From contig NZ_CAJSLV010000114.1 of assembly GCF_907177275.1 (NCBI RefSeq), forward strand, positions 1-64,000: 64,000 nucleotides of DNA. The letters run 5' to 3'. Every line of letters begins with the position of its first letter. Positions within the stretch are counted from its first letter, which is position 1. This DNA comes from Actinacidiphila cocklensis (GTDB lineage Bacteria > Actinomycetota > Actinomycetes > Streptomycetales > Streptomycetaceae). The notes below the pieces were generated by a model. It saw only the letters and a list, made by a program, of their open reading frames with translations, had not been told where the DNA came from and did not search any database. A program made the position numbers and the translations under genes. Positions 37,178-43,565 of this stretch are shown here, one piece after another.

Positions 37178-38002
37178 TCAGCCGTTGCCGTCGGCGGTGA
37201 GTTGTACCGGCAGCGCCCCGCTGGAGATCGCGGCGGCGAGGTCCTGCGCGCCTTCCTTCGTGTAGCTTCCGCTGATCTGGGCCTTGCCGCCGGTGATTGC
37301 GGACACGACCGAGGGCGCGGAGATCACCTCTGCGTCGACCACGATGGCGAACTGGTTCGTCGGCGGGGTGTGCTGGGCCAGGGTGCCGGTGACGGCGGCG
37401 AACGTCTTGCTGCCCGCGGGGCTGAACGCGAGGTCGACGAGCCATCCGGCGCCGGTCACGGAGTCGAACTCCGCCGTCGCGCTCTCCACCTTCGCGCCGT
37501 CGAGGGCGGTCGGCCCGAGCAGGTACTTCTGCTCCTTCACCCCGTCGCAGGCCACGGTCGGACGTGCCGGCAGCGACGGAGTCGCCCGCGTCGTCCGGCT
37601 GCAGTCCATGGAGTCGTAGGCCTGCTTGAGCCCGTTCTGCCCGGCGGTGGCCGGGTCGAGCACAGGCCGGAACTCCAGCAGGGCCGTGGTCGTCATCCGC
37701 CGCAGCCGGTCGGCGTTGCCGTGCGGCGCCGTGATGGTGACCACGGTGCCGTCGACCCGCACGTCGGTGTCCTTGAGCCCGAGGGCGGCGGCGCGTTCGC
37801 GCACCCGGTCGGCGGTCACCCGCATGTCCTCGTCGGTCGGCGTGCCGGAGCCGGCCAGGCTCGCGGTGTACGCCGCGGTGGTGCGCGCCGACGCGTTCTT
37901 CTCTTCGGCGCCACCGGAGTCGGAGCAGCCCGAGACGGCGGACGCGAGGGCGAGCACGACGACGGCGAACGCGGCGGAATACGCCTTGCGGTGAGGAAGC
38001 AT
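37178..38002 (-). CDS. Orphan SecD-like (SecDF P1 domain) lipoprotein
   Basis: 274 residues. A lipoprotein signal ends in AVSGCSDSGG. The mature protein shows the SecD periplasmic pattern: a P1-base-like start (VTADRVRERAAALGLKDTDVRVDG with TITAPHGNADRL), then LLEFRPVLD, YLLGPTALDG and the head region (DLAFSPAGSKTFAAVTG, NQFAIVVDAEVISAPSV, ISGSYTKEGAQDLA). The six-helix membrane domain of SecD is absent altogether. It is anchored outside the membrane by lipid only. It may assist folding or release of exported proteins, or be a repurposed binding module. ATG 38002 lacks a clear ribosome-binding site. Confidence 0.87.
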   Translation of the reverse strand: MLPHRKAYSAAFAVVVLALASAVSGCSDSGGAEEKNASARTTAAYTASLAGSGTPTDEDMRVTADRVRERAAALGLKDTDVRVDGTVVTITAPHGNADRLRRMTTTALLEFRPVLDPATAGQNGLKQAYDSMDCSRTTRATPSLPARPTVACDGVKEQKYLLGPTALDGAKVESATAEFDSVTGAGWLVDLAFSPAGSKTFAAVTGTLAQHTPPTNQFAIVVDAEVISAPSVVSAITGGKAQISGSYTKEGAQDLAAAISSGALPVQLTADGNG

Positions 38003-39438: not shown

Positions 39439-40813
<1,375 letters not shown>

Positions 40814-40819
40814 GGGCGC

Positions 40820-41683
40820 ATGAGAATGCACAACGCGGACGAGAGCTGCGGGATCGCGCAGGCCGCCCTGGTCCTGGGGGACTGGTGGAACGTCCTGGTG
40901 CTGCGGGAGATCGCCCGCGGCCACGTCCGCTTCGACGCGCTGGCCGCTGAGATCGGCCTGTCCCGCAAGGTGCTCACCGAGCGGCTCGGCCGGCTCGTCG
41001 GGAGCGGGGTGCTGCGGCGCAGCCTCTACCAGCGGCGCCCGGTGCGCTACGAGTACCTGCTCACCGACGCGGGGGACGCGCTGCTGCCCCTCCTGGCCGC
41101 CATGCAGGACTGGGGCGACCGGTGGGTGCTCGGTGACGGCAGCCTCACCGCGACGGCGGTCGAGGACGGGGCCGAACACGCCCGCGTCCACGCCCTGGTC
41201 GGCACCCGGCTGCCCGACGGCCTCGAACTGCCCGGCGCGCAGGGCGAGATGCTGCCCGTGGTCGCCCCGGGCGCCGCCGCGACCGTGCTGTTCACCTATC
41301 CCGGCACCGGAGTCGAGTGGGGCGCTGTCCCCGGGGCGGCGGGCTGCACCCTGGAGAACCGGCTGTTCCGCGACGCCTGGCCGGACTTCCGGCGGGCCGG
41401 CGTGGACCTGCGCGGGGTCAGTACGCAACTCGTCTCGGAGCAGGCGGAGTTCGCCCGCGCCGAGGACATCCCTTACCCGCTCCTGTCCGACGCCGACCAC
41501 CACCTGGTCGCGGCCCTGCGACTGCCCGCCTTCCGGGGCGCAGGCCGGCTGCGCCACAAACGCCTCGCCCTGGTCGTCGACGCCGAACGGACCGTACGGC
41601 ACGCGCTCTTCCCCGTCGACGACATCCCGCACGCGGTCACCGAGACCCTGCGCCTGGCGGAGGAGCGTGCCCGCCCGGCCTGA
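40820..41683 (+). CDS. HxlR-family regulator fused to a BCP/PrxQ-type peroxiredoxin
   Basis: 287 residues. Residues 8-105 form a DUF24/HxlR winged helix (CGIAQAALVLGDWWNVLVLRE, FDALAAEIGLSRKVLTERLG, RPVRYEYLLTDAG). Residues 128-285 form a thioredoxin-fold peroxiredoxin with the peroxidatic motif PGAAGCTLENRLFRD. There are exactly two cysteines: Cys10, at the position of the conserved N-terminal redox Cys of HypR-type regulators, and Cys176, the peroxidatic Cys. I infer a one-protein peroxide sensor. ATG 40820 coincides with the predicted transcription start, so the mRNA may be leaderless; the AAAAGGA nearby instead precedes a three-codon ATG-GGC-GCA-TGA whose stop overlaps this start. Confidence 0.9.
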   Translation: MRMHNADESCGIAQAALVLGDWWNVLVLREIARGHVRFDALAAEIGLSRKVLTERLGRLVGSGVLRRSLYQRRPVRYEYLLTDAGDALLPLLAAMQDWGDRWVLGDGSLTATAVEDGAEHARVHALVGTRLPDGLELPGAQGEMLPVVAPGAAATVLFTYPGTGVEWGAVPGAAGCTLENRLFRDAWPDFRRAGVDLRGVSTQLVSEQAEFARAEDIPYPLLSDADHHLVAALRLPAFRGAGRLRHKRLALVVDAERTVRHALFPVDDIPHAVTETLRLAEERARPA

Positions 41684-41813: not shown

Positions 41814-43565
41814 TCAGTCGCGCGGGGGCGGGAGGAGGTGCCAGGCGCCGGCCGGGGTGGGGGAGGCCGGCAGGGGGTGGTGGAGGGAGGTCAGGGACAG
41901 GTGGGCCAGGGTGATGCCGCGGCCCTCGTAGACCGGGTCGGTGGTGTAGCGCCAGCGCAGCTGGAGGGCGCCGGACGGCTGCGGGACCTGCGTGTGGACG
42001 TGCCACCAGGCGCGGACGGCCTGGCCGGACAGGGAGGTCGGCGTGCCGGCCGGGGCGCCCGGGCCGGTGGCGGTCAGCGGCAGGGCGTGCCAGGTCGCGC
42101 CGCCGTCCGTGGAGTCCTCGACGACGAGCGGATCGGTGGACTCGCTGTTGACGAAGGCGGAGAAGTCGACGTCGACCGGGGCGGTCGCGGTGAGCGGGCC
42201 GGTGGTCAGGGTGCTGGTGGTGGCGCCGCCCTGGCCGGAGTACCAGAGCGGGCCGCCGCCGGGCGCCGCCACCCGCATCGCCTGCGACATCGCCACGCCG
42301 ATGGCCCGGCGCGGCGGGTTGGTCGAGGGGGTGGTGCGGGTGGGGTGCACCCGGTTGCTCAGCAGGATGACGAAGGACCGCGACTGCGGGTCGATGACCA
42401 GCGAGGTGCCGGTGTAGCCGGTGTGCCCCAGGGTCTGCGGGCCGGAGAGGCCGCCCATGTACCAGATCTGGTCGAGCTCGAAGCCCAGGCCGTGCGAGTC
42501 GCCGGGGAACGCCTGGTTGAAGTTCTGCTCCATCAGCCGGACGCTGTTCCCACCGAGGATGCGGTGGCCCTTGTACGTACCGCCGTTGAGGATCGTCTGG
42601 GCCAGGACCGCGAGGTCGTCGACGGTGGAGAAGACGCCCGCGTGGCCGGCCACGCCGCCCAGCGCCCAGGAGTTCTCGTCGTGCACCTGGCCCCGGACCA
42701 TCCCGCGTGCGGGGCTGGTCTGGTACTCGGTGGCGGCGATCCGGGGGAGCTTGTCGGCCGGCGGGTTGTAGCCGGTGTCGGTCATGTGCAGCGGCGTGGT
42801 GATGCCGTCGCGGACCAGGGCGTCCAGCGGCTTTCCGGTCACCTTCTCCAGGACCAGTTGCATGCTGAGCATGTTGAGGTCGGAGTAGAGGTACGTGCTG
42901 CCCGGCGGGTTGATCGGCACGGCGTCGAGGACGGCCTTCTCACGCGCGGGGACGTCGGAGTACCCCTGCCACAGCGAGGGGACCGGGTCCGCGTCGAACC
43001 CCGAGGTGTGGGTGAGGAGTTGCTCGACGGTGATGTCGCCCTTGCCGCCCGTGGCGAACTCCGGGATGTAGTGCGCCACGGGCGTGCCGAGGTCGATCCG
43101 CCCGGCTTCGAGCTGCTGCATGGCCACGATCGAGGTGAACAGCTTCGACAGCGAGGCCAGGTCGTAGATGGTGTCGGTACGGGCCGGGACCCACTGGTCG
43201 GGGGGCAGCTCGTCGGCGGCGTCGGCGTACTTCACCGCGTAGCCTCCCGCGCCGCGTTCGACCACGACACCGTCGTGGGCCATCAGCGTGGTGGCACCGG
43301 GGAAGAGGTAGCCGGTGCCGGCGGCCGGGTCCTCCCAGCCGGCCATCCGGCGCTCGAAGGCGTCGATGGGCGCCGCGTCGAGCCCCGCGTCGCCCGGGGT
43401 CCCCGGGCGGAGCACGGTGCCGGCCGGCGCGAAGCCGGTGTACGGCCGGTCGAACCGGCCGCCGTCCGCGTGCCGCCCCGCCGGGTCCGCGGCGGCGCCG
43501 CCGGCCAGCGAGAGGGTCAGCGACGTGATCAGCGCAACGGTCGCCGTCAGTGCAGGAATCCGCAT
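41814..43565 (-). CDS. Secreted serine hydrolase (class C beta-lactamase/AmpH-like) with C-terminal beta-rich domain
   Basis: 583 residues, Sec signal (ALTATVALITSLTLSLAGGAAA). The beta-lactamase-like domain spans about 45-430, with SxxK as SLSKL, YxN as YSDLN and a third motif HTGYTG (His-Thr-Gly in place of KTG, usual for the esterase/peptidase branch). Residues 440-583 form a Thr-rich beta domain. It probably acts on peptidoglycan peptides or esters outside the cell. ATG 43565 has GAGGTT upstream. A clear promoter is present. Confidence 0.9.
   Translation of the reverse strand: MRIPALTATVALITSLTLSLAGGAAADPAGRHADGGRFDRPYTGFAPAGTVLRPGTPGDAGLDAAPIDAFERRMAGWEDPAAGTGYLFPGATTLMAHDGVVVERGAGGYAVKYADAADELPPDQWVPARTDTIYDLASLSKLFTSIVAMQQLEAGRIDLGTPVAHYIPEFATGGKGDITVEQLLTHTSGFDADPVPSLWQGYSDVPAREKAVLDAVPINPPGSTYLYSDLNMLSMQLVLEKVTGKPLDALVRDGITTPLHMTDTGYNPPADKLPRIAATEYQTSPARGMVRGQVHDENSWALGGVAGHAGVFSTVDDLAVLAQTILNGGTYKGHRILGGNSVRLMEQNFNQAFPGDSHGLGFELDQIWYMGGLSGPQTLGHTGYTGTSLVIDPQSRSFVILLSNRVHPTRTTPSTNPPRRAIGVAMSQAMRVAAPGGGPLWYSGQGGATTSTLTTGPLTATAPVDVDFSAFVNSESTDPLVVEDSTDGGATWHALPLTATGPGAPAGTPTSLSGQAVRAWWHVHTQVPQPSGALQLRWRYTTDPVYEGRGITLAHLSLTSLHHPLPASPTPAGAWHLLPPPRD

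Follow-up and report, generated by a model that had tools for sequence, protein, structure and literature searches.

The open reading frame at 40820-41683 of the window, that is, of the whole 64,000-nucleotide stretch of Actinacidiphila cocklensis DNA analysed here, encodes an HxlR-type regulator fused to a PrxQ-like peroxiredoxin, and the explanation that we cautiously prefer overall is that of an autoregulated HxlR repressor of its own gene and of the divergent second enolase gene, eno2, carrying a sensor domain derived from PrxQ. The architecture, the shared operator and the fusion gene and eno2 as targets are supported by comparison of related sequences, and we infer DNA binding, repression rather than activation, a thiol-oxidation input and derepression as the output. 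The initial annotation had described a single protein that joins a regulator to a sensor-like domain, and this was likewise supported. The gene and its two domains are located as follows:

40820-41683, plus strand: HxlR–peroxiredoxin fusion regulator, 287 aa, aligned with 63 distinct full-length relatives
40871-41128, plus strand: HxlR winged-helix DNA-binding domain, residues 18-103 (PF01638, E 1.6e-21)
41192-41674, plus strand: PrxQ/BCP-like peroxiredoxin domain, residues 125-285 (PF00578, with PrxQ/BCP proteins as best Foldseek matches)

Both domains, which had been proposed to share a single reading frame, were recovered by Pfam above the cut-offs. The HxlR domain scored 76.4 bits against a cut-off of 20.8, which places it in the HxlR/DUF24 family, and AhpC-TSA (PF00578) matched residues 173-261 with an E value of 2.3e-11, also above its curated cut-off. 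The AlphaFold2 model, built from 34 sequences of fusion relatives, had a mean pLDDT of 82 and a pTM of 0.74, with a confident peroxiredoxin half and a linker at residues 98-111 that was modelled with low confidence. The solved structures nearest to the model by Foldseek were the BCP/PrxQ proteins 9a4d, 5epf and 5enu, and the TM-score by target of 0.82 for 5epf indicates an AhpC-TSA/Redoxin fold for which PrxQ is the nearest type. In the same model, helix 11-19 starts directly after Cys10, as expected for the N-terminal cysteine of HxlR/DUF24 proteins, and Cys176 occupies the first turn of helix 176-192, which is the placement of the peroxidatic cysteine in PrxQ/BCP proteins. A longer N-terminus starting from the upstream GTG at 40595 (a 362-aa reading frame) was considered and rejected, as it would cross the conserved operators and the eno2 start region. 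Elsewhere in the window, the minus-strand gene at 41814-43562, convergent with the fusion gene, encodes a serine hydrolase of the beta-lactamase family with a C-terminal InhA-like MAM match, and the minus-strand gene at 37178-37951 encodes a small protein that contains the P1-head subdomain of SecDF and has the appearance of a solitary SecD-like fragment.

Four residues of the fusion bear on how a signal might be sensed, and their codons are given below:

40847-40849, plus strand: Cys10, at the N-terminal cysteine position of HxlR/DUF24 proteins (Cys in 63 of 63 relatives)
41345-41347, plus strand: Cys176, at the peroxidatic-cysteine position (Cys in 56 of 63 relatives)
41360-41362, plus strand: Arg181, in the place of the PrxQ resolving cysteine (Arg in 40 of 45 enolase-linked orthologues)
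41561-41563, plus strand: Arg248, probable peroxiredoxin active-site arginine, assigned by the motif KRLxLV (44 of 45 enolase-linked orthologues and 15 of 15 others)

The equivalent of Cys10 is also a cysteine in the solved HxlR proteins 4gcv, 2f2e and 2fsw, and it is equally invariant in the relatives that have a resolving cysteine inside the peroxiredoxin domain. Since this residue is common in HxlR proteins without any peroxiredoxin, its conservation need not reflect a partner in the peroxiredoxin domain; the assignment of Cys10 to the sensing position of HxlR/DUF24 regulators was therefore borne out, but as a general HxlR feature rather than one specific to the fusion. The claim that Cys176 lies in a complete BCP/PrxQ motif did not hold. 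The residues three and seven positions before Cys176 are Ala173 and Ala169 (sequence YPGTGVEWGAVPGAAGCTLENRLFRD), which departs from PxxxTxxC because the loop before Cys176 is expanded (YPGTGVEWGAVPGAAGCT), and the resolving cysteine, found five residues after the peroxidatic one in atypical 2-Cys members of PrxQ, is absent from the window protein. Position 181 is a cysteine in 8 of the 15 aligned non-enolase relatives and in L072-L080, and the resolving cysteine within GCTLESC is kept by many of the non-enolase fusions. An extra cysteine was also observed in YCFPG, about 23-25 residues before the peroxidatic cysteine, in many non-enolase fusions (L072-L080, L109-L140). Translation of the reading frame gave Cys10 and Cys176 and no other cysteine, so that the count of two is correct for the window protein, but Cys283 occurs in 22 of the 45 enolase-linked orthologues, which means that a two-cysteine design is not conserved.

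Cys176 is kept by all relatives without a link to enolase, and its losses, about four in the tree, all fall inside the enolase-linked branch (L041, L048, L051 and the pair L050 and L082); these losses lie on terminal or cherry branches, some of them long (L082, L050), of a tree obtained by quick search. The loci lacking Cys176 retain Cys10, the adjacent enolase and both operators, and L106 was confirmed to retain Cys176 when its alignment was inspected by eye. The thiol chemistry of the peroxiredoxin domain is probably ancestral and being relaxed in the enolase branch.

A search for the same two-domain architecture, as had been suggested, proved productive: at a threshold of E 1e-60 or better the fusion was present in 105 of 298 Streptomycetaceae genomes, and in an evenly drawn sample of the phylum 3 of 396 genomes gave a match, all three belonging to Streptomycetaceae. 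The scan of genome contigs, which yielded 56 loci encoding relatives of the fusion, added two Sphaerisporangium fusions and one from Nonomuraea outside the family, and the 63 distinct full-length proteins that were aligned combine these loci with the hits of the genome search. The enolase-linked fusions, the window protein among them, form one side of a 92-row tree with an SH-aLRT of 100, the tree being the product of a quick search. Among the enolase-linked orthologues the mean pairwise identity was 90% for the HxlR half (residues 1-104) and 73% for the peroxiredoxin half, and by this comparison the peroxiredoxin half is the faster-evolving one in the enolase branch. Its motifs STQ, LLSD, ALRLP and KR248 are near-invariant in the same alignment, suggesting that the peroxiredoxin domain is under selection and unlikely to be inert. 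No characterised HxlR-peroxiredoxin fusion was found in the open-access literature, in agreement with the earlier statement that no characterised system of this design was known. The fusion belongs to a widespread and apparently uncharacterised family, and open-access papers seem to contain no description of the fusion, of the operator shared across the family or of enolase as the target, HxlR regulators and PrxQ proteins themselves being known. In one strain, Streptomyces sp. P3 (L053), both the fusion and the enolase are frameshifted, by sequencing errors or by decay.

The region between the fusion gene and eno2 contains the following elements, the operator sites being predicted ones:

39439-40722, minus strand: eno2, encoding the divergent second enolase, a full-length protein of 427 aa that begins at a GTG codon (TIGR01060, E 6.6e-194)
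40767-40787, no strand: operator site 1, TAAGTTCC-N5-GAAACAAA, on the enolase side, conserved at -53 in enolase-linked loci
40789-40809, no strand: operator site 2, TGAGTCCCGAAAAGGAACCTA, a near-palindrome, conserved at -31 in enolase-linked loci
40808-40813, plus strand: TACTAT, -10-like element of the fusion gene, identified from sequence and conservation

The two sites are 21-bp near-palindromes set 22 bp apart. The conserved intergenic core is TAAGTTCC-N5-GAAACAAAGTGAGTYCCGAAAAGGAACYTACTATGG, and the palindromes are kept across 47 distinct intergenic sequences, which confirms the reported arrangement of a divergent enolase across a palindrome. The operator common to the fusion family is AGTTCC-N5-GGAACT, and the same palindrome precedes fusions without a neighbouring enolase, at distances that vary. 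When the upstream regions of 96 fusion genes were scored against TGAGTTCC-N5-GGAACTCA, 86 reached at least 12 of 16, compared with 8 of 4,800 shuffled controls that reached 12 and none that exceeded it; the shuffles were mononucleotide and preserved nothing beyond base composition, and since the sequences are also related to one another, the score is a guide and not a probability. Site 2 is the only perfect match to the consensus in the 9.1-Mb genome, and a wider regulon, sought there with the strict consensus at two mismatches or fewer, was set aside as the search returned the local site and one other at two mismatches, probably a chance match. The palindrome was also considered as an RNA terminator, for which the minus strand gave a single, weak match resembling a terminator; this reading was rejected because fusions with other neighbours have the palindrome too, at differing distances from the gene.

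Evidence for the targets comes from the loci where the enolase is missing. Site 1 scored 11-16 of 16 in enolase-linked loci and 2-9 in five loci without the enolase. In four of the latter (L026, L043, L045, L046) site 2 was kept (19-21 of 21) and site 1 was lost (4-9 of 16), and at L057, a locus of the enolase-linked type without enolase, both sites were lost; the enolase losses among loci of this type amount to two or three independent events. Retention of site 2 together with loss of site 1 where eno2 is gone gives good support to control of both the fusion gene and eno2, and the fusion very probably binds both sites and controls itself and eno2. Control of the enolase through the palindromes, which had been suggested initially, is supported by the same conservation. 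Site 2 overlaps the -10 element of the fusion gene itself in enolase-linked loci and abuts the -10 in several other branches. As TACTAT is close to the ATG, the fusion transcript may be leaderless or nearly so. The intergenic search found no TTGACA-type -35 for the fusion-gene promoter and no sigma-70-like promoter pair for eno2.

The initial annotation had further suggested redox control of a glycolytic step. The glycolytic part of this was not upheld: the housekeeping enolase (L086) lies on another contig of the same genome, eno2 is an isozyme, and what would be controlled is therefore a spare enolase and not the glycolytic step as such. The enolase was adjacent at 41 of the 46 contig-scan loci with the close fusion type. 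Of 30 eno2 genes compared, the 14 at 85% identity or above all adjoin a divergent fusion and none of the 16 with 78-83% identity does; in 15 of these 16 the neighbour is a MarR protein, in every case one without cysteine. The intergenic regions between MarR and eno2 (L157-L171) contain repeated elements resembling CTGTnCAG/ACAGCAATGCTGT about 11 bp apart, which are suggestive of an operator array. Streptomyces copies of eno2 mostly share 90-94% identity with that of the window genome, and copies from genus-mates 85-90%, the reverse of the housekeeping enolase (92-93% to Streptomyces and 95-99% to genus-mates), and from this comparison the fusion-eno2 cassette (39439-41683) was probably acquired horizontally as a unit. 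The literature search gave no lead on resistance to the enolase inhibitor SF2312 as a role of eno2, and no characterised regulator of any Streptomyces enolase was found in open-access papers. A related case is described in S. coelicolor, where SCO7639, like the fusion, is divergent from the second enolase (SCO7638), and the two are reported to rise together in Pi-proficient S. lividans (PMC9739823). Unlike the fusion, SCO7639 is annotated as a MarR protein (PMC6637917), and going by that annotation it is probably of the cysteine-free MarR type that stands beside the more divergent eno2.

In the mechanism that we propose, the fusion would be an HxlR-type repressor, probably dimeric, that has captured a PrxQ-like peroxiredoxin as its C-terminal effector domain. 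This repressor would bind the two 21-bp near-palindromes, which lie two helical turns apart, site 2, abutting the -10 of the fusion promoter, giving autorepression and site 1 governing the divergent isozyme gene eno2. Across the family the peroxiredoxin domain would most likely sense peroxides or other thiol oxidants through the peroxidatic cysteine, working with its own resolving cysteine or with Cys10 of the HxlR domain, and oxidation would release the operator. A redox origin of the domain is indicated by the non-enolase fusions, which keep the peroxidatic cysteine and in many cases also the resolving one, and the domain was probably a thiol-based sensor that in most relatives still is one. 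In the enolase branch the resolving cysteine is gone and the peroxidatic cysteine is dispensable in some species, suggesting that the input there may have been simplified, to Cys10 alone or to Cys176 with Cys10, or shifted to a ligand. Both the losses of Cys176 and the pairing of eno2 with a cysteine-free MarR suggest that thiol sensing is unnecessary for eno2 control. That the signal in the window protein is redox or electrophilic in nature is in our view evenly balanced, and peroxide in particular is weakly suggested by the presence of Cys176 in most relatives, including all the non-enolase ones.

How the signal would reach the DNA-binding domain can be read in several ways. The initial annotation favoured a relay from Cys176 to Cys10. 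In detail, peroxide would convert Cys176 to a sulfenic acid, which a Cys10 from either subunit would resolve by forming a disulfide, and the resulting strain would pull the HxlR dimer off the operator. In the window protein, where the resolving cysteine and Cys158 are gone, Cys10 is indeed the sole remaining thiol partner for Cys176; the two occur together in 40 of the 45 enolase-linked orthologues, the probable active-site Arg248 is kept, and the low-confidence linker in the model would leave the docking of the domains open. Against this, Cys176 was lost repeatedly with Cys10, the operators and the enolase intact, the conservation of Cys10 needs no partner to explain it, and Cys283 offers an alternative one in nearly half of the orthologues; the relay as a required mechanism was not sustained, and a Cys10-Cys176 disulfide as the working switch is unlikely. 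The invariance of Cys10 and the dispensability of Cys176 agree with a classical one-cysteine HxlR/DUF24 sensor, in which Cys10 would be the sole site of reaction with quinones, aldehydes, HOCl or other electrophiles and the peroxiredoxin domain would serve here only in structure or dimerisation. The homologous cysteine of HxlR proteins is described as a sensor of electrophiles or oxidants (PMC7835342), and the faster divergence of the peroxiredoxin half points the same way, but the near-invariant motifs show this domain to be still strongly selected, and we consider this reading rather unlikely. One form of it can be dismissed: formaldehyde-sensing HxlR uses a Cys11-Lys13 crosslink (PMC7835342), and sensing as in the Bacillus protein was ruled out for the fusion, where Cys10 is followed by Gly11-Ile12 and the lysine two residues after the cysteine is missing.

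The peroxiredoxin-like domain could instead be a non-redox effector that binds a ligand, for example a glycolytic intermediate or a natural product. The cysteine-free MarR proteins beside most of the more divergent eno2 genes are in line with such an input, as is the position of non-enolase fusions divergent from MFS and ABC-2 transporters, a usual setting for drug-sensing repressors; a pure ligand pocket would, however, need no Cys176, which most members and all non-enolase relatives keep, and we regard this possibility as improbable. The non-enolase HxlR-peroxiredoxin fusions L122-L141, L052 and L054 often have a divergently oriented neighbour encoding an MFS or ABC-2 membrane protein, and they share the same operator; such transporter-adjacent fusions may be repressors of drug or oxidant efflux. 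As to the direction of control, the Bacillus HxlR protein activates hxlAB, and site 1 lies on the enolase side, apart from site 2. For SCO7639 and SCO7638, too, activation was proposed on the basis of protein levels (PMC9739823), but their joint rise is equally expected from the release of an autorepressor, SCO7639 is probably a neighbour of the MarR type and not a fusion, and site 2 coincides with or abuts the -10 of the fusion gene. Weighing these points from sequence comparison, we consider it likely that the fusion acts mainly as a repressor and doubtful that it activates eno2.

The favoured repressor model has parallels in several known systems. The fusion resembles the HxlR/DUF24 redox regulators YodB, HypR/YybR, QsrR and HxlR in its winged-helix domain, in the N-terminal cysteine that most of them carry, in a palindromic operator and in a gene that often lies divergent from its target, but those regulators consist of one domain and about 105-130 aa, and the window protein adds a complete peroxiredoxin-fold domain and an enolase isozyme as target. 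With PrxQ/BCP proteins (5epf, 5enu and the X. campestris PrxQ 5iiz) it shares the fold, a peroxidatic cysteine at a helix start, the GCT-E-FRD block and the conserved arginine; it differs in having neither the resolving cysteine nor the canonical PxxxTxxC spacing and in being joined to a DNA-binding domain. The closest peroxiredoxin found in the same genome is a standalone actinobacterial protein of the GCTPEAC-FRD type (L005), 41% identical over residues 121-266, which has in common with the fusion the GCTxE-FRD block, the expanded loop and the STQ/SGQ, LLSD/MLSD, LPxF and KRL motifs, but is unfused and keeps the resolving cysteine (GCTPEAC). In the Gpx3/Orp1-Yap1 and Tpx1-Pap1 systems, a thiol peroxidase passes oxidation to a separate transcription-factor protein; the logic proposed for the relay is the same, except that the fusion is one chain and its relay hypothetical.

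Should the relay hold, which we think improbable, Cys176 would capture peroxide, Cys10 would resolve it, the operator would be released and a stress isozyme of enolase would be induced by one chain, and in that case all members of the fusion family would make up a new class of peroxidase-based repressors acting on transporters and enolase. The family also provides a natural set of variants: some fusions have both peroxidatic and resolving cysteines, others keep just the peroxidatic one, and others lack both, with the operator the same in nearly all of them. Only a few of these proteins would need to be purified to answer whether a peroxiredoxin can serve directly as the sensor of a repressor. 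One enolase isozyme would moreover stand under two unrelated regulators: depending on the branch, an HxlR-peroxiredoxin fusion or a MarR protein without cysteine.
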